Origin: Alphaproteobacteria bacterium
GTDB taxonomy: Bacteria > Pseudomonadota > Alphaproteobacteria > Rs-D84
DNA length: 57,724 nt
NCBI GenBank assembly: GCA_009784275.1
Contig: WRCA01000005.1
Location: 1-57,724 of the forward strand
Reading direction: 5' to 3'
Under the pieces are notes generated by a model. It was not told the origin of the DNA, did no database searches, and saw only the letters and a list, made by a program, of their open reading frames with translations. Position 1 is the first letter of the stretch, and the number at the start of each line of letters is the position of its first letter. Shown piece after piece: positions 32,767 to 44,143 of the stretch. A program made the translations under genes and the position numbers.

Positions 32767-33834
32767 CTATGGTTCGTTAAACAATCTTGCGGGGTCGATT
32801 GCTTTGGTCCCGCGGCGTAGTTCCATATACATTTCCGAACGTTCGTCCGGCATGCGCCCGATTGGTTCACCCGCCAAAACTTCCTGGCCCACCAGAACAT
32901 CTGAACTCGCCAAACCGGTCAAAACCGAATAATAAGAATTTTTATGCGACAGGATTAAGACCCTGCCATTCTTGCGGAAATCATCGGCAAATTCCACGCG
33001 GCCATCTGCGGGCGCCGATACCAGCGCGTTTGATCTTGTCTTGATCAGCCATCCGTCAGACACCAGCCCCAACGGAGATTTATCTCCAAACCGACGTAGC
33101 AATATTCCTCCGACCGGCGATTTCATTTTGCGCCAGCTGAAGCTTTCATCTTTGGAAACTTCGCCGCGCGAAAGGCCAGCGGTCAATTCAGACAAGTTTT
33201 GTGCACGCGCAGAAAGGTCGCGTAATTTCTTTTGCAATTCATATTGTTGCGATTTTAATTTTTCATTTTGTTGCGAGCGGGTACGCATCAGCTTATCCAA
33301 AAAGGCCTTGTCTTCCGCATATTTTTGCGCGGTCTTGTCCAGTTTTGCCTGTTGATTTTTTCGCTCGTCTAGAATTTTTTCTAGCTCTGCAATCTGTTTC
33401 GCAGCATGTTTTACCTCTGAATCAAACTGGTCGGCAAGTCCCGTCAGAAGCGCGCTGGTCAGAATATATTCGCGTGTGTCGGCGGCTGAAAACGAAGGGT
33501 TTGATGCAATCGCAATCAGACCAGTCGCGGCATCGCCCAGTCGTCCTTTGTTCGCACGAATAGATGCCAATAAGGTATCGCGTTTTGCATCCAGGTCGGA
33601 AATTTTACTTTTTATATCGCCGCGTTCGCCCTCCAGCTTATCCAACTTTTCCGCCGCGGATACCAACTGTTTTTGAGTACTCGCTACTTCTTTATCGCTG
33701 GTTTTTACTTGTTGTTCAATCTGCTTATTCTGCTGTTCAGTCTTTTTAATCTGGGATTGAACCTGGGCAAGTTCACTGGACGCGGCGTTTGCCACGCCAA
33801 CGAAGAAAGAAAAAACGAGAATCAGTTTCTTCAT
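32767..33834 (-). CDS. envC: EnvC-like murein hydrolase activator
   Basis: 355 residues. Signal peptide (KKLILVFSFFVGVANAASS), a long coiled coil (about 20-230), and a C-terminal LytM/M23 domain (about 240-350). The metal ligands of active M23 peptidases are absent: SDGWLIKT replaces HxGxD and EMYMELRR replaces HLHFE. As in EnvC, the domain would activate amidases rather than cleave peptidoglycan itself, at the division site. It overlaps tyrS by 4 bases. Confidence 0.9.
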   Translation of the reverse strand: MKKLILVFSFFVGVANAASSELAQVQSQIKKTEQQNKQIEQQVKTSDKEVASTQKQLVSAAEKLDKLEGERGDIKSKISDLDAKRDTLLASIRANKGRLGDAATGLIAIASNPSFSAADTREYILTSALLTGLADQFDSEVKHAAKQIAELEKILDERKNQQAKLDKTAQKYAEDKAFLDKLMRTRSQQNEKLKSQQYELQKKLRDLSARAQNLSELTAGLSRGEVSKDESFSWRKMKSPVGGILLRRFGDKSPLGLVSDGWLIKTRSNALVSAPADGRVEFADDFRKNGRVLILSHKNSYYSVLTGLASSDVLVGQEVLAGEPIGRMPDERSEMYMELRRGTKAIDPARLFNEP

Positions 33835-35045
33835 TTAATCAGAACTTTCAAAAAGGTCTTTTTTCCTTTTTGCAACAAAATCGATTTAGCGGGCGATATC
33901 ATTACCTTTGGATCGGTGATTTTTTCACCTGCGACAATCAGACCTCCCTGCTCTATGGCGCGACGCGCTTCAGATTTACTTGTTATTAGTCCTATAGCCA
34001 CAACGAAATCAACAACATTCATCCCATCTTTCATTTTCAGTTCCACTGTCGGAACAGCCATACTTTCCGCGCCGCCCGCAAACAAAGCATTAGCGGCATC
34101 CGCTGCAGCTTTTGCCGCATTGGTTCCGTGTGCGATTTCTGTCGCCGCGAACGCTAGGATTTTCTTTGCTTCATTGATTTCAGAGCCTTTCAGCTTTGCC
34201 AATTTAGCTATTTCTGGCAATGAAATTTCTGTAAAAATTTTCAAGAATTTCTCAACATCGCCATCCATAACATTACGGAAGTATTGATAGTAGTCATACG
34301 GACTAGTTCTGTCTGCGCGCAACCAAACTGCATTGCCCGCCGATTTCCCAATTTTGTTTCCGTTCGAATCCGTAATCAATGGGCAAGATAAAACAAACAC
34401 TTCTTTCTGACGCTTGCGCCGCACCAGGCTGACGCCTGCGACCGAATTTCCCCATTGGTCCGCACCGCACAGCTGCAAAGTGCATCCATATTTATCAAAT
34501 AAATGTAAAAAATCTACGGCCTGCAGCGGCATATAATTAAACTCTAGAAACGACATGCCGTTTTCCAAACGACGCTTTACGCTTTCCATTGCCAACATCT
34601 GCGGCACTGTAAAGTCCGTTCCGAACTCACGCAGGAAATCGAGATGGCTGTAATTCTTCTGCCAATCATAGTTGTCGACCATAATCGCGTCGGTTTTTCC
34701 TTTGCCGAATTTTACAAACTGTTCGTAACATTGACGTAGTCCGGCAGAATTCGCCGCAACTTGCGCGTCCGACATCATTGGTCTGTCAGAGTTTCGTTCA
34801 GCTGGATCACCTATGCGTCCAGTCGCGCCGCCAACCAGCATAATTGGCTTGTTCCCGTATTTCTGAAACCATCGCATAATCATAATAGTAACCAGATTCC
34901 CAACATGCAGCGCGTCGGCGGTTGGATCAGAACCCAAATATGCCGTCATAGAACCAGCGGAAAATGCCGCGCGTAAGCCTTCCATATCAGTAGTTTGATA
35001 AATCAAACCGCGTTGTTCAAGCTCTTGCAAAAAATCGTTATTCAT
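33831..35045 (-). CDS. tyrS: Tyrosyl-tRNA synthetase
   Basis: 404 residues, class I synthetase. HIGH signature as DALHVGNL, tyrosine pocket YLGSDPTADALH and MLVGGATGRIGDP, KMSKS loop as NKIGKSAGNAVWL, and a C-terminal S4 RNA-binding domain (TSKSEARRAIEQGGLIVAGEKI). ATG at 35045 has AAAAGGAATTTCTT upstream. It is the first gene of tyrS-envC-ctpA-DUF1460-nagZ. A weak promoter (TTATAC-N18-TATGAT, 35065-35094) lies upstream. Confidence 0.96.
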   Translation of the reverse strand: MNNDFLQELEQRGLIYQTTDMEGLRAAFSAGSMTAYLGSDPTADALHVGNLVTIMIMRWFQKYGNKPIMLVGGATGRIGDPAERNSDRPMMSDAQVAANSAGLRQCYEQFVKFGKGKTDAIMVDNYDWQKNYSHLDFLREFGTDFTVPQMLAMESVKRRLENGMSFLEFNYMPLQAVDFLHLFDKYGCTLQLCGADQWGNSVAGVSLVRRKRQKEVFVLSCPLITDSNGNKIGKSAGNAVWLRADRTSPYDYYQYFRNVMDGDVEKFLKIFTEISLPEIAKLAKLKGSEINEAKKILAFAATEIAHGTNAAKAAADAANALFAGGAESMAVPTVELKMKDGMNVVDFVVAIGLITSKSEARRAIEQGGLIVAGEKITDPKVMISPAKSILLQKGKKTFLKVLIK

Positions 35046-35117
35046 AAGAAATTCCTTTTGTACAATCATAGCAAAAATCAGCCTTTTTGTATAATGGTTT
35101 TATAAATATCAATAAAA

Positions 35118-35174
35118 TTATATTTGCCCGTTTGGACATGCGACTAAGACCAAGTTGTCAATTCCAACAATCAT
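35118..35174 (-). CDS. Candidate 18-residue peptide ORF after the degenerate radical SAM gene
   Basis: The ORF encodes MIVGIDNLVLVACPNGQI. Its ribosome site GGAGATAAA is formed by the last codons and stop of the upstream gene (TGGAGATAAAATG), with the ATG one base after that stop, an arrangement typical of translational coupling. The peptide is hydrophobic with one Cys and a Pro-Asn-Gly near the end. A peptide substrate for the adjacent radical SAM enzyme is an attractive but unproven idea; the ORF is short enough to be chance. Confidence 0.35.
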   Translation of the reverse strand: MIVGIDNLVLVACPNGQI

Positions 35175-35175
35175 T

Positions 35176-36210
35176 TTATCTCCAATTATAGAACGGGTTG
35201 AAATTTTCTCTATAATAACGTCTGGCGTATTCGAGCGCGATGTCCTCGCGAATCGTCGACCAATTCTTATATTTATTATTCTCGGTCTTATAAGGAATTT
35301 GAATCAATGACTGTCCAACCGCAATCTTATTGCCAGGATTAACCTCTATAAAAAATGGAATCCTGGCTTTTTCATCCTCTTGCGGGGCGTCCTTCTTGGG
35401 CGCGACTTTTGCGCTTGTATTTTTAAAATCCGAAATAATGCCGTTAATCGGATAGCCTTTCAGCTTGAATTTAAACCGATGCCCCTTTTCTGAAATATCG
35501 GGATATTTTAATTTAGGACTGCCCAGCACTTCTGTCTTAAAATAATCAAAGTTTTTGTGGTTTATTACCACTTTGAGATTAATTTTGTCTGAAAGCTCCT
35601 TGGATTCGGCTATGCGTGATGCGATACCCGTAAAACAATTCATGTCGCGCTGTAGGTAAGCGGAATCAGCTATTGATATAGAAAGCGTGAATAGGGGAGG
35701 ATTCCAAAAACACCCCTCTGGTTCAAAACATTCTTTAAGATTTTTGACCATTGTCTCTTGCGATTGGCCCAGCGCAAAAGCGAACTCAAACCCTGCAGCG
35801 ATATTTCTATCTATATATCCTTGGCTATATTTTTGCTCCCGTGGAACGACCAAGGAATCTAACATACCCCACATTGCTTTGGCTTTTCTGTGATCGCACG
35901 CCCAAGCGGCATCCGTTTTCAGCTCTACAACTGTATTCATCTTCAAGGCTTCTTCTGTCGCAGGCTTTAATTCATTAGATATTTGGTAAGATGTGAAAAG
36001 CCCGCCTTCGTCGATATATACTCTATTGCTATAATTTTTTACTTTTTCTTTGAAATGACGAATATAATATTTTATGTCTTGCCAAGGGATAAAATCGTTT
36101 CTTCCGTCGCACCGCTTGGCTATATAAAACCATAGGATGATATCATAATCATCCTGCAGTAACGATTGTAGGCACGCTTGTTTAAGAGCTTCAATTTTAG
36201 TTTTTGGCAT
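35176..36210 (-). CDS. Degenerate radical SAM paralogue lacking the Fe-S cysteines
   Basis: 344 residues from ATG 36210. It aligns by eye with the neighbouring radical SAM protein along most of its length: IPWQDIKYYIRHF against IPAEDIKYSIDMF, IDEGGLF against FSGGEPM, LKTDAAW against ILTNGYW, and near the end IPYKTENNKYKNWSTIRED against TPYKNPDGSYKTWEQLKQG. The CxxxCxxC that holds the 4Fe-4S cluster is missing; the matching stretch reads WFYIAKRCDGR. It is therefore probably catalytically inactive, perhaps a regulatory or peptide-binding partner. Own promoter at 36220, almost leaderless. An 18-codon ORF follows immediately. Confidence 0.7.
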   Translation of the reverse strand: MPKTKIEALKQACLQSLLQDDYDIILWFYIAKRCDGRNDFIPWQDIKYYIRHFKEKVKNYSNRVYIDEGGLFTSYQISNELKPATEEALKMNTVVELKTDAAWACDHRKAKAMWGMLDSLVVPREQKYSQGYIDRNIAAGFEFAFALGQSQETMVKNLKECFEPEGCFWNPPLFTLSISIADSAYLQRDMNCFTGIASRIAESKELSDKINLKVVINHKNFDYFKTEVLGSPKLKYPDISEKGHRFKFKLKGYPINGIISDFKNTSAKVAPKKDAPQEDEKARIPFFIEVNPGNKIAVGQSLIQIPYKTENNKYKNWSTIREDIALEYARRYYRENFNPFYNWR

Positions 36211-36219
36211 ATTGAACAA

Positions 36220-36247
36220 ATTGTAGACCCTAAACCCAATTTGTCAA
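36220..36247 (-). promoter_or_regulatory. Promoter TTGACA-N16-TACAAT
   Basis: Minus strand: TTGACA 36242-36247, TACAAT 36220-36225, spacer 16. The ATG at 36210 follows 9 bases after the -10 box, so the leader is at most a few bases. Confidence 0.75.
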
Positions 36248-36254
36248 TGTAAAA

Positions 36255-37355
36255 TCAAATCATTTTCTTATATTGCGCCGACCGCATTTGTTTGCGGGCG
36301 GCTCGCGCGGCCTGGTATTCTCTGTATCGCTGCGCGCGGCGTTCCGGGAAATAAAGCATGTCTTCCCACAACCCGTCTATGAATCCTTGCTTTAACTGTT
36401 CCCAAGTTTTATAGCTGCCGTCCGGATTCTTATAAGGCGTTTGGCCAATAATGGTATTTTCAACCCTTAATGATGCGATGCCGTTCGGATAGTAAAATAC
36501 TGCCAAAAGTGAACCCCTGCCCATAGGATGCGAGGTTACAAAATCACGCTCTAAATTATGTCTGTGCAGTTGGTTGCTTCCTTTTGCCCAAGGTCTGCCA
36601 GTATTATTCCAATAGCCACCACGCCAAGAGTCCACTAATATTACACGGTTGGCGATAGCGATCAAATTCTCGTTTATAATTTGTATTCCAAATTCTGATT
36701 GCAAGGATGCGATTTGGTCCCAGCAAAACTCTTTCTTTTTATCCCTGGGCGCTAGATAAAAACTGACCTTGCTATACAGTTCTTCATCTTGATATACGCT
36801 GTCTATTCCGCGGATATATTTTCGCATGCTTTTTCTGGATGTACCATCTGAATGTAATTCCAAAGCGAGCGAAGTCGTAACCAATAATTCATCCTGATTT
36901 AATGAGTAAAAATGCACATTTTTTAGACCGCGCAGCATTTCCAATATCTGGGCATATCTTTTGGGATTTTCCATCCAATAGCCATTGGTTAATATATTTA
37001 CGCTGCTGTGATTTTCCTTTGTGGTCCCCAGCGCATACTGATAAACCTCGGCCTGGTATTTTATTGGAGTCATCATAGGCTCGCCGCCCGAAAAAGCTAT
37101 TGTATTACTACGGAAGTTAGGTAATAACCTGAACATATCTATGCTGTACTTAATATCTTCTGCAGGGATGACGGTATCCGCTTTCCACGGCCCGCAATTA
37201 AAAGCGCAATACCAGCAACCATTCAAACATTCCCAAGTCAAATGAAACTGTGGAGCAACACTTATGTATGGGTCATTAAGAATACTCGCCCAATGTCGGC
37301 GATATTTCGGTTCGTTTTCACGGATAAAATTTTCAATGGCGAATTCAGTCATCAT
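36255..37355 (-). CDS. Radical SAM protein, unknown substrate
   Basis: 366 residues from ATG 37355 (AAAGAG upstream). The 4Fe-4S motif is C43-x3-C47-x2-C50 in WECLNGCWYCAFNCGPW; the SAM-binding GGEP follows in IAFSGGEPMMT, and VNILTNGYW and NVHFYSLNQDELL supply later barrel strands. No SPASM or second cluster motif is obvious; the C-terminus is basic with Arg/Ala/Tyr repeats. Radical SAM enzymes start radical chemistry from S-adenosylmethionine, often on peptides or RNA. A degenerate paralogue lies downstream. Monocistronic promoter at 37376. Confidence 0.88.
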   Translation of the reverse strand: MMTEFAIENFIRENEPKYRRHWASILNDPYISVAPQFHLTWECLNGCWYCAFNCGPWKADTVIPAEDIKYSIDMFRLLPNFRSNTIAFSGGEPMMTPIKYQAEVYQYALGTTKENHSSVNILTNGYWMENPKRYAQILEMLRGLKNVHFYSLNQDELLVTTSLALELHSDGTSRKSMRKYIRGIDSVYQDEELYSKVSFYLAPRDKKKEFCWDQIASLQSEFGIQIINENLIAIANRVILVDSWRGGYWNNTGRPWAKGSNQLHRHNLERDFVTSHPMGRGSLLAVFYYPNGIASLRVENTIIGQTPYKNPDGSYKTWEQLKQGFIDGLWEDMLYFPERRAQRYREYQAARAARKQMRSAQYKKMI

Positions 37356-37375
37356 TTGAATAACTCTTTTCGCCC

Positions 37376-37403
37376 AGCATATCACTATTATAATATTTGT
37401 CAA
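37376..37403 (-). promoter_or_regulatory. Promoter TTGACA-N16-TATGCT
   Basis: Minus strand: TTGACA 37398-37403, TATGCT 37376-37381, spacer 16. Drives the radical SAM gene with a leader of about 15-20 bases containing AAAGAG. Confidence 0.75.
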
Positions 37404-37423
37404 TAGTGCGTTTATATATAATA

Positions 37424-37448
37424 AAAATCCCGCATAACGCGGGATTCT
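37424..37448 (-). terminator. Rho-independent terminator of rpsB-tsf
   Basis: Minus strand: AATCCCGCGTTATGCGGGATT followed by TTTATT, shortly after the tsf stop. Confidence 0.85.
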
Positions 37449-37464
37449 TTGTTTTTGGTCTATA

Positions 37465-38334
37465 TTACCCCAGCATTTTTGCTACTTCATCGGCCAGATT
37501 ATCATCTTTCTTTTCGATGCCCTCGCCCAGCAGATAATATGCAAAGCCTTTCAGGGTCGTATTATGTTCCGCCAAGACTTGTTTTACGGTCTTCGATGGA
37601 TCCATAACGAACGGTTGTTCTTCCAAAACGGATTCGCCATAGTATTTCTGGATGCGTCCCGCGACCATCTTTTCGACCACCGCTTCTGGCTTGCCATCTG
37701 TGGCACCAGATTCGACAAAGATTTTCTTTTCGCGTTCGACCGCCGTTGGATCAACCTCTGCAATAGTCGCAAATTCAGGTTTGTTTGCCGCGATATGCAT
37801 CGCAATCTTTGGACCAATTTCATCGGCCCCAGCCTTATCGCCATCCAATGCAACCACAACGCCAATTTGACCCATACCTGGGACCAACGCATTATGAACA
37901 TAAGTATAAATATGCGTTCCATGAACTTTCGCGATGCGACGCAGGCTCATATTTTCACCAATGGTCGCAATTGTCGCCGCGATATCGTCTTTGACTGCGC
38001 TATGAACCGCATCAAATTCACCCTTCAATTCCAAAGCCTTCGCAGCAATATCCGCAACCAGCTTTTGGAATTTTTCATTCTTTGCGACAAAGTCAGTTTC
38101 GGCATTAACCTCTATAACACAACCACAGCCTTCGTCCTTTACAACGGTAACGAGGCCGGATGTTGCAACACGACCGGCTTTACTGGCGGCCTTTACAATA
38201 CCTTTCTGACGCAGCCAGTCAGACGCGGCCTGAACATCGCCGTCATTTTCCATTAATGCTTTCTTGCAGTCCATCATTCCCGCGCTGGTCTTTTCGCGCA
38301 GTTCCTGAATTAATTTTGCTGTAACCTCTGCCAT
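37465..38334 (-). CDS. tsf: Elongation factor Ts
   Basis: 289 residues. Nucleotide-exchange factor for EF-Tu. N-terminal UBA-like domain (LIQELREKTSAGMMDCKKALMENDGDVQAASDWLRQKG), the conserved ETDFVAKNEKFQ, and two core subdomains (GRIQKYYGESVLEEQPFVMD). It follows rpsB with one base between, the standard bacterial order, and ends at a terminator. Confidence 0.97.
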   Translation of the reverse strand: MAEVTAKLIQELREKTSAGMMDCKKALMENDGDVQAASDWLRQKGIVKAASKAGRVATSGLVTVVKDEGCGCVIEVNAETDFVAKNEKFQKLVADIAAKALELKGEFDAVHSAVKDDIAATIATIGENMSLRRIAKVHGTHIYTYVHNALVPGMGQIGVVVALDGDKAGADEIGPKIAMHIAANKPEFATIAEVDPTAVEREKKIFVESGATDGKPEAVVEKMVAGRIQKYYGESVLEEQPFVMDPSKTVKQVLAEHNTTLKGFAYYLLGEGIEKKDDNLADEVAKMLG

Positions 38335-41146: not shown

Positions 41147-41428
41147 TTATTCCTCGTTCATCTGTTTTGTAAGCTCTGGGCTGGGACGAAATAAAACCCC
41201 ACGGCGCCCAGGAAGGGTCATAGTTTTGCCAGTCCGCGGATTACGCGTTGTCTTTGGCGCACGGTTTCTGGATTGAAAAGTGCCGAATCCGCGAATTTCG
41301 ACCCGATCGCCGTTTGTGACCGCGTCAGTCAAGCAGTCTGTTACAGTATCCATAATGCCTGCGGCCTCTGCGGAGGATAACCGTTTGAATTTAACTTGGA
41401 TAGAACGAATGATATCTGACCGTTTCAT
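41147..41428 (-). CDS. ihfB: HU/IHF-family DNA-bending protein, likely IHF beta
   Basis: 93 residues. Whole family pattern: MKRSDIIRSIQVKF, VTNGDRVEIRGFGTFQSRNRAPKTTRNPRTGKTM with the Pro-containing DNA-intercalating arm. The RGFGTF and NPRTG wording and the acidic C-terminus fit IHF-beta better than HU, though the assignment within the family is not certain. Its stop codon touches the accDA start. Own promoter at 41456. Confidence 0.85.
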   Translation of the reverse strand: MKRSDIIRSIQVKFKRLSSAEAAGIMDTVTDCLTDAVTNGDRVEIRGFGTFQSRNRAPKTTRNPRTGKTMTLPGRRGVLFRPSPELTKQMNEE

Positions 41429-41524: not shown

Positions 41525-42271
41525 TTAAAGCGTGTTTCGCTTCAATTCTTGCTCTATTTTATCAAACATGCTTCTGGCGAATTCATTGCAGTATGTGACA
41601 TATTCGTTGATATTCAACTTTCGATATTCTACATCATAACGACCTTTTTTCAAACCATTTAACCCCAGTTTTAATTTGACGCTCTTTGATAGTGCGTGCC
41701 GCTTGTTTTCGGGATTATACCTTCCAACCGCATGTTTGGATATATTATTCAGCACACGAATGTCGTTTATATGAATATAGTGTTTTACCGAACCGACGCC
41801 ATTAGGATCGATAATTGTGTAAGCTTTTTTGAATGTATCGTAATCGAATGAAAAAGGTCTGCCGTTCTTTTGATATTGGGCTTGGTATAAACTGGGCGCA
41901 TCAGCCAGTTTCGCACAGCTGGTCTGCAGTACACATAAGTACGGCATCATGCCTTTCAGAAAATCTTCCATATGACCCCATATATGAACCACCATCATGC
42001 TCTGTAAGGCATTCAAAGCATCACTTTTTTCATACTCGGAATCAGCCAGCTCGTAACCGACAATATTACCCGTTTCCTGATCGAGATCAGGAACAGATTC
42101 AATTGGCTTGGCCTTTATCATTTCCACACAATCCATAAAATAGTCCCAAGTGGATATACCATAGCGACCTGTTGGAAATTTCTTATCTATCCAATAATTG
42201 CCCCAGCATTCAAACCCTGTGCGAATTGTTTCTGTTTCTGCAGATTGTTCGTCTATTCCAAAACCTATCAT
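41525..42271 (-). CDS. Helical protein of unknown function, possibly HEPN-like
   Basis: 248 residues, mostly alpha-helical by composition, no signal peptide. The stretch INDIRVLNNISKHAVGRYN resembles the R...NN-I-KH helix of HEPN-like domains in uncharacterised proteins, though the Arg-His spacing (seven residues) is longer than the usual Rx4-6H. An upstream VHIWGHMEDFLKGMM would be the partner helix. RNase activity is not claimed. It has a strong promoter with an inverted repeat in the leader and is divergent from luxR; AAAGGG precedes the ATG. Confidence 0.6.
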   Translation of the reverse strand: MIGFGIDEQSAETETIRTGFECWGNYWIDKKFPTGRYGISTWDYFMDCVEMIKAKPIESVPDLDQETGNIVGYELADSEYEKSDALNALQSMMVVHIWGHMEDFLKGMMPYLCVLQTSCAKLADAPSLYQAQYQKNGRPFSFDYDTFKKAYTIIDPNGVGSVKHYIHINDIRVLNNISKHAVGRYNPENKRHALSKSVKLKLGLNGLKKGRYDVEYRKLNINEYVTYCNEFARSMFDKIEQELKRNTL

Positions 42272-42462: not shown

Positions 42463-42501
42463 ATTATTGAATAATTTTCAAAGTTTTTGGGGGGTAATCC
42501 T

Positions 42502-43245
42502 TTGAAAATATTAAATTATCTTGAAGAAATGAGCAATTCGTCTTCTCTGGACGATTTGTTTGACCTGTATAGAAAATCCACCAGCGAATATGGATATGAT
42601 CGTATAATGTACAGCTCTGTTTCGAATGACATCGAAAACGACCATAATAAAACACCTTGCTTGGTTCAAAATTATCCAGAAGATTGGATGAAACATTATA
42701 TAGAAAATGGTTATATTCAAATCGATCCTGTCAGAAGAAGGGGCTGTCATTCAACTGAACCGTTTACATGGAAAAGTTTGAAAGATTATTCTGAATTATC
42801 GAAAAAACAAGAAATTATTATGTCAATGGCAGAAGAAGCCGGTCTGCATGACGGCATAGGAATACCATACCGCACCCCCAGGGGCGAAATAATCGGCGTT
42901 GGGATTGCAAGCAGTGCCAAAGGCACAAATCCAGAAGAACATATTGGAAAACTATATATGTTGACCAGTCATTTTCATTTTATGTATCAGGCACTGTTAG
43001 AAAAAAATATAATAAAAACTGATGATGATTTTACCGACATATCACTTACCCCGCTTACTCCCCGCGAGCAAGATGTATTATTGTGGTGTATGAAGGGTAA
43101 AAGCAACTGGGATATTTCAATGATTCTGAACGTATCGGAACATTGCATAGATTTTCACATGCGTAATATATTAAGAAAGCTGAATACTAATTCGAGACTT
43201 ACGGCTGTCGTAAAAGCAATGCGCATAGGCCTGATTAAACCGTAA
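42502..43245 (+). CDS. luxR: LuxR-family quorum-sensing transcription factor
   Basis: 247 residues. N-terminal autoinducer-binding domain with the invariant ligand-pocket residues W62, Y66, D75, P76 and W90 (DWMKHYIENGYIQIDP). C-terminal GerE-type helix-turn-helix (about 185-247): LTPREQDVLLWCMKGKSNWDIS, then FHMRNILRKLNTNSR. It should bind an acyl-homoserine lactone in the cytosol and control target promoters. The TTG at 42502 is chosen because GGGGGG lies 7 bases upstream; another TTG at 42487 is in frame. luxI follows on the same strand. Confidence 0.93.
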   Translation: MKILNYLEEMSNSSSLDDLFDLYRKSTSEYGYDRIMYSSVSNDIENDHNKTPCLVQNYPEDWMKHYIENGYIQIDPVRRRGCHSTEPFTWKSLKDYSELSKKQEIIMSMAEEAGLHDGIGIPYRTPRGEIIGVGIASSAKGTNPEEHIGKLYMLTSHFHFMYQALLEKNIIKTDDDFTDISLTPLTPREQDVLLWCMKGKSNWDISMILNVSEHCIDFHMRNILRKLNTNSRLTAVVKAMRIGLIKP

Positions 43246-43348: not shown

Positions 43349-44143
43349 ATGATGAGGGTTGTAACAGTTAAAGATGCGATGAAAGATAAAACGTTCGAAG
43401 AAGTCGGAGCATTCAGATATAAATTATTTTGTAAAACACGAAACTGGAGAAGCGGCCTAGAAATTTATGAGACAGGGATTCCCGAACCTGATAATAAAGG
43501 GAAATTACTTTTGGCAGAACGGGATGAATTTGATAGTTTAAATGAAACTATTTATTTTATATCTTATAATATTAATCAAAAAATTGATGGGATTGTACGT
43601 TTTCAGTCTACGGAATATCCGTATATGCTTCAAAAAGATTGTTTTAGAAATATTCCTGGCTTTATTAATGAAAAATTGCCCGTTTCTTCCCTGGTCTGGG
43701 AAGCTTCCAGGACAGGATTTGACCCTGACTTGGATAAAGAAAAACAACTTTGCGTAACAGGAGAAATAGTTACTTCATATTTCGAGTTTTGCCTAAAAAA
43801 TAATATTGATTTTGTTGTTGGGACCATGAGTATGGCAGTAATATATCTTCTTTTTGGAAGATCCGGGTGTACCATAAAAGGCGATAATAACGATGATATG
43901 CATTATATGGGGAGCCCTGTAAATATGAAAGACCCTGTATCAGGCGCGGTTGATAAAAATTCGGTTGCCGCCAAACTGCGAATTTCCGAAGGTGCTTATG
44001 CAAGGGTAAGGGAAACAAGGGGAACACCAAAAAATTTATTATATACCCTGGTAGGGGACAAAACTTTTTCTAAAATACCGGTATTATCTAGAATTCCATA
44101 TAAAAATGAAAAAATTAGCGAATTATTGGTTAATACGCATTAA
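43349..44143 (+). CDS. luxI: Acyl-homoserine-lactone synthase (LuxI family)
   Basis: 264 residues, longer than the usual 190-220. Makes an acyl-homoserine lactone from S-adenosylmethionine and an acyl carrier (ACP or CoA). All invariant residues are present: R23 and W33 in FRYKLFCKTRNW, E57-D59-D62 in ERDEFDS, R84 in GIVRFQST, E118 and R121 in WEASR. The extra length is at the C-terminus (about 200-264). ATG preceded by AAGGAT. It lies 103 bases after luxR behind its own promoter and palindrome. The block is visibly AT-richer than its surroundings. Confidence 0.93.
   Translation: MMRVVTVKDAMKDKTFEEVGAFRYKLFCKTRNWRSGLEIYETGIPEPDNKGKLLLAERDEFDSLNETIYFISYNINQKIDGIVRFQSTEYPYMLQKDCFRNIPGFINEKLPVSSLVWEASRTGFDPDLDKEKQLCVTGEIVTSYFEFCLKNNIDFVVGTMSMAVIYLLFGRSGCTIKGDNNDDMHYMGSPVNMKDPVSGAVDKNSVAAKLRISEGAYARVRETRGTPKNLLYTLVGDKTFSKIPVLSRIPYKNEKISELLVNTH

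Follow-up and report, generated by a model that had tools for sequence, protein, structure and literature searches.

Pseudoenzymes have been well studied for kinases and other enzymes, and an open library search on radical SAM pseudoenzymes returned passing mentions and nothing specific to them. Among radical SAM proteins of solved structure, the closest relative of the two neighbouring proteins considered here (P1 and, downstream of it, P2) is the peptide epimerase EpeE/YydG (PDB 8ai1-8ai6; TIGR04078), which is the best solved relative of their family profile (1e-11) as well as the best fold match for the models of P1 and P2. TIGR04078 is matched by 10 of 14 family members at E <= 0.001, and P1 itself scores 22.4 bits against it, short of the cut-off of 300. 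The subfamily that contains P2 (subfamily B, see below) differs from EpeE/YydG in having just one invariant cysteine outside the cluster motif, and P2 differs from it in having no cluster site.

Weaker likenesses extend to other named groups. The viperin family (NF038283) is matched by P1 (1.2e-6, at 27.9 bits where 180 are required) and by 9 of the 14 members. TIGR04347, an NCBIfam family of radical SAM-like proteins named pseudo-SAM/SPASM, which to judge from its name would be haloarchaeal and devoid of the cluster motif, is matched weakly by three family members and not by P2. Dph1-Dph2 is reported to be a two-subunit radical SAM enzyme (PMC11048331); unlike P1 and P2, it is non-canonical (i.e., of the ACP-radical type) and holds Fe-S clusters in both subunits. 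Given TIGR04347 and Dph1-Dph2, an earlier note on this DNA was too sweeping in stating that no radical SAM pair of such a kind had been described. Pseudoenzymes are nevertheless little described among radical SAM proteins, and P2 would add a case that comes with a series from one bacterial family: its intact counterparts by position, beside tyrS in relatives; the sister copy, likewise intact, that its own genome encodes; and P2 itself, minus the cluster loop.

The locus and the upstream enzyme

On the minus strand of the window (the whole stretch of 57,724 nt that was analysed), P1 and P2 lie as neighbours between homologues of tsf and tyrS (Table 1). P1 is separated from P2 by 44 nt and from tsf by 109 nt, which gives scant space for a precursor-peptide gene, and none is evident at the locus. 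The listed frame of P1 begins with a TTG at 37403, upstream of the ATG given in the table.

Table 1. Coordinates of the features discussed; positions refer to the window unless a contig or locus is named
Feature	Position	Strand	Remarks
tyrS homologue	33831-35069	-	downstream of P2
P2	35176-36210	-	344 aa, predicted radical SAM fold without cluster site; ATG at 36210
P2 EGG	36001-36009	-	residues 68-70, at the GGE position in alignment register
P2 cluster-site scar	36091-36111	-	C34 is retained; DGRNDF follows where intact members have the loop bearing Cys2 and Cys3
Promoter-like TTGACA-N16-TACAAT	36220-36247	-	between P1 and P2; 11/12, consensus match only
P1	36255-37355	-	366 aa, intact radical SAM protein by sequence; ATG at 37355
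P1 cluster motif CLNGCWYC (CxxxCxxC)	37206-37229	-	residues 43-50; from sequence and alignment A1
Promoter-like TTGACA-N16-TATGCT	37376-37403	-	before P1; 10/12, consensus match only
Terminator-like hairpin	37423-37449	-	after tsf, parting it from P1; 12 pairs, T-rich tail
tsf homologue	37465-38334	-	upstream of P1
HU/IHF-like gene	41147-41428		flanks the 248-aa gene
248-aa protein	41525-42271	-	family unassigned; own TTGACA site
LuxR-type regulator	42487-43245	+	
Autoinducer-synthase-like protein	43349-44143	+	adjoins the LuxR-type gene
C1	G000:C1:47980-49038		intact subfamily copy with full motifs; same genome, other contig
98-aa protein	L045:7677-7973		conserved; likely membrane segment
98-aa protein	L046:9485-9781		as above
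98-aa protein	L101:3963-4259		as above

The earlier note had credited the upstream protein with CxxxCxxC and GGEP, and this is borne out by its cluster motif, by an SGGEP that represents the GGE-type SAM motif, and by a match to Pfam Radical_SAM PF04055 (E 5.7e-8; 33.5 bits, cut-off 29.5); its 17 NCBIfam matches each fall far under their cut-offs. The AlphaFold model of P1, of moderate quality (pLDDT 67), finds EpeE as its best PDB match, with a barrel fold (Foldseek E 1.1e-6). Judged by motif and predicted fold, P1 is a member of the radical SAM superfamily.

Each of the two genes was also said to possess its own TTGACA-N16 promoter. Sites of this type do precede both, and the one between the genes, which lies 9 nt before the ATG of P2 and is the best match of the region, would yield a leaderless or nearly leaderless P2 transcript. 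That these promoters are special to P1 and P2 did not hold up: a TTGACA followed by a TATATT-like element recurs before genes across the window, and promoter-like sites are no commoner in the region than in shuffled sequence (8 observed vs. 11.1 expected). As consensus matches, the two sites appear ordinary and are compatible with separate expression of the genes.

Elsewhere in the window, a LuxR-type regulator (autoinducer-binding domain, 6.8e-31) adjoins an autoinducer-synthase-like protein (1.5e-9); the two look like a quorum-sensing pair that this genome of 0.89 Mb has retained. The luxR-type gene also flanks, together with the HU/IHF-like gene, the gene of the 248-aa protein.

Homology and catalytic motifs of P2

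Direct comparison of P1 and P2 by BLASTP is marginal (E=0.018 across 19 residues) and was dropped as a homology test because it was too weak, profiles and intermediate sequences being used instead. A family HMM built without P2 recovers it at E=1.7e-35, and one built without either protein recovers both (1.4e-40 for P1 and 9.4e-38 for P2); moreover, each of the two matches the same intact radical SAM proteins of related genomes. The earlier note had taken the downstream protein for a homologue of the upstream one and had proposed profile-profile comparison as the check; that comparison, between the P2 group and the P1 group (hhalign), returned 100% probability and E=3e-39 over 312 columns, such that the claim stands, by way of profiles and not of BLASTP. 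These sequence profiles establish that the two proteins are homologous, at a level well beyond random similarity. P2 has no match in Pfam or NCBIfam, and its AlphaFold model, again moderate (pLDDT 68, from a nine-row alignment), has EpeE as its best PDB match (E 4.5e-4).

Where the cluster loop of the intact sister C1 reads RC-NLSCKSCYMNASPDCPDDQ-IH, P2 has RC-DGRNDF-IP, a loop about 13 residues shorter and in frame. All three cluster cysteines had been reported missing from P2; in fact the second and third are gone with the loop and the first (C34) is retained, leaving one of three. Similarly, the GGLF that had been read in place of GGEP is not at the corresponding position, which in register reads EGG, not GGL. 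Other motifs are changed as well (TN to TD, SVD to SIA, and HP to YL), and of the 15 catalytic-motif residues that do not vary in subfamily B, 4 survive in P2, whereas the two intact outliers, C1 and the member from genome G123, keep all 15. At 75 other subfamily-invariant positions, 26 are kept in P2, 37 in C1 and 40 in the G123 protein. A frameshift as the origin of the motif loss, which the earlier note had set as a check on itself, was rejected on the sequence: the other reading frames of the P2 region were searched and hold no hidden cysteine motif, and the loss stands. Lacking Cys2, Cys3 and the GGE site, P2 should be incapable of both [4Fe-4S] cluster binding and SAM cleavage.

Descent and distribution of the family

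In a tree of 55 rows, and in a careful one of 26 rows, P2 falls inside subfamily B beside C1 (support 94/89), and P1 falls outside it, with a protein from genome G002. A constrained grouping of P1 with P2 is rejected (p-AU 0.009), which together with the separate branches rules out P2 as a recent tandem duplicate of P1; the paralogue pair proposed in the earlier note is thereby replaced by an arrangement in which the nearest relative of P2 is the intact C1. Because P1, P2 and the G002 protein all sit on long branches, their exact placement is uncertain, and the clade of P2 with C1 is not firmly supported. The end branch of P2 is the longest of the tree (1.9), which also fits a relaxation of constraint.

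Gene order agrees with descent from subfamily B. Five sampled relatives (G077, G038, G083, G168 and G123) have an intact gene of this subfamily immediately upstream of tyrS, and since P2 occupies the same place, it is their positional counterpart; the order tsf, radical SAM gene, tyrS is common to the P1/P2 locus and G077. The tsf regions of G004 (same genus), G001, G002, G003 and G005 contain no family member.

P2 is the only uninterrupted protein without CxxxCxxC among the 79 family members recovered, a census that is incomplete in that some weak order-wide matches were left out. Two further candidates for cysteine-less members (L114 and L115, both in G138) were discarded, since both genes are interrupted and their motif lies in a different frame or just behind a stop. 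No cysteine-less orthologue of P2 was found in 201 genomes of the order (in which the genus is represented by two), in a class sample of 385 genomes searched with the family profile, or in a phylum sample of 398 genomes searched with P2 as query, and P2 is so far known from one genome. Across the order set and the class sample, the family was met in this order alone; the case reveals an uncharacterised radical SAM family that seems confined to one reduced-genome gut order of Alphaproteobacteria. A single-protein search of genome contigs gave no match, whereas the narrower A2 profile did succeed; the named relatives found with that profile are Alphaproteobacteria MAGs, several of them recovered from the gut of yak and roe deer.

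Stops or frameshifts break up several related radical SAM genes of the order, L114 and L115 among them, and these interrupted relatives suggest that family members have been lost repeatedly.

The co-occurrence check proposed earlier found the P1/P2 pair in none of the other genomes examined. Three genomes do have two distinct radical SAM genes in tandem, at L112 (G197), L113 (G116) and L116 (G037), with CxxxCxxC intact in both members (CNLSCIWC, CNFKCIYC).

Retention, decay and possible partners of P2

If P2 were free to drift, stops would be expected to accumulate along with motif losses. Its 344 codons contain none. In simulations of neutral drift starting from C1, 80% of the residues are still in place after 0.1 substitution per site, but stops by then average 4, and stop-free runs make up 0.5%; at 0.2 substitution per site and above, 0 of 200 runs are stop-free, and drift would have to go far beyond this to remove 11 of the 15 motif residues. 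Differences at the three codon positions between P2 and C1 (0.57/0.46/0.64) are like those of an intact pair, C1 and the G042 protein (0.56/0.43/0.71), i.e., the profile of P2 resembles that of intact members and is coding-like. Because most motif residues were lost without stops and with a normal codon profile, a long absence of catalysis in a protein that was kept is favoured, an argument that rests on one sequence. We therefore regard P2 as probably a retained radical SAM pseudoenzyme, long inactive.

The main competing explanation is that P2 is a decaying gene in which a recent in-frame deletion has left the frame still unbroken. Decay has to be taken seriously, given the stops and frameshifts in relatives elsewhere in the order; the occurrence of P2 in one genome, its long branch, and an intact C1 that could make it redundant point in the same direction. 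However, 11 of the 15 motif residues have disappeared, some of them outside the deletion (GGE, TN, SVD and HP), a loss that drift by itself would be slow to produce, yet the gene has no stops, a normal codon-position profile and a good promoter-like site before it. On balance, we consider ongoing decay somewhat unlikely.

The history that fits retention of a long-inactive P2 would begin with an intact enzyme of the lineage-specific subfamily B, encoded directly upstream of tyrS. In this lineage, the gene would have lost Cys2 and Cys3 with their loop, together with most residues of the SAM site, and kept its reading frame and the main elements of the barrel core, the sister C1 retaining the full motifs. 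P2 would then most likely act as a protein-binding partner or decoy, for C1 or P1, through its old substrate or protein surface. That P2 was kept because it has a function, the sequence in which the losses occurred, and any partnership are inferences. Descent speaks for C1 as the partner and adjacency for P1, and we choose neither. The more specific proposal, that removal of the cluster loop from an enzyme of the same family produced a working protein which, independently of SAM, regulates C1 or P1 or presents substrate to it as a subunit, is a tentative one. Radical SAM chemistry in this genome still looks possible from its gene content: the SUF core is present, and there are seven Radical_SAM matches (P1, C1 and five others), among which are proteins that, by reading of their sequences, we take to be HemW-, MiaB-, MtaB- and RlmN-like.

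A dedicated heteromer of an active P1 with an inactive P2, as proposed in the earlier note, agrees with two adjoining genes of one wider family on the same strand, 44 nt apart and with no terminator-like site between them. But the proteins belong to different branches, P2 has a separate promoter-like site, the pair was met nowhere else in the order, and the location of P2 is explained by its inherited place upstream of tyrS, all of which make a dedicated heteromer very doubtful. Slightly less remote, though still improbable, is the repurposing of P2 to an unrelated function, such as ligand or peptide binding, with no radical SAM partner. Such a change would suit a protein in which most motif residues are replaced and the secondary structure of the barrel core is predicted to persist, but no particular new ligand is indicated and P2 matches no family.

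The conserved 98-aa protein of Table 1 was considered as a partner and rejected, in that it resembles a small membrane protein and is absent from the P1/P2 locus. In G042, G049 and G176, its gene overlaps the start of the subfamily-B gene, and the neighbour there is ssb, not tyrS.
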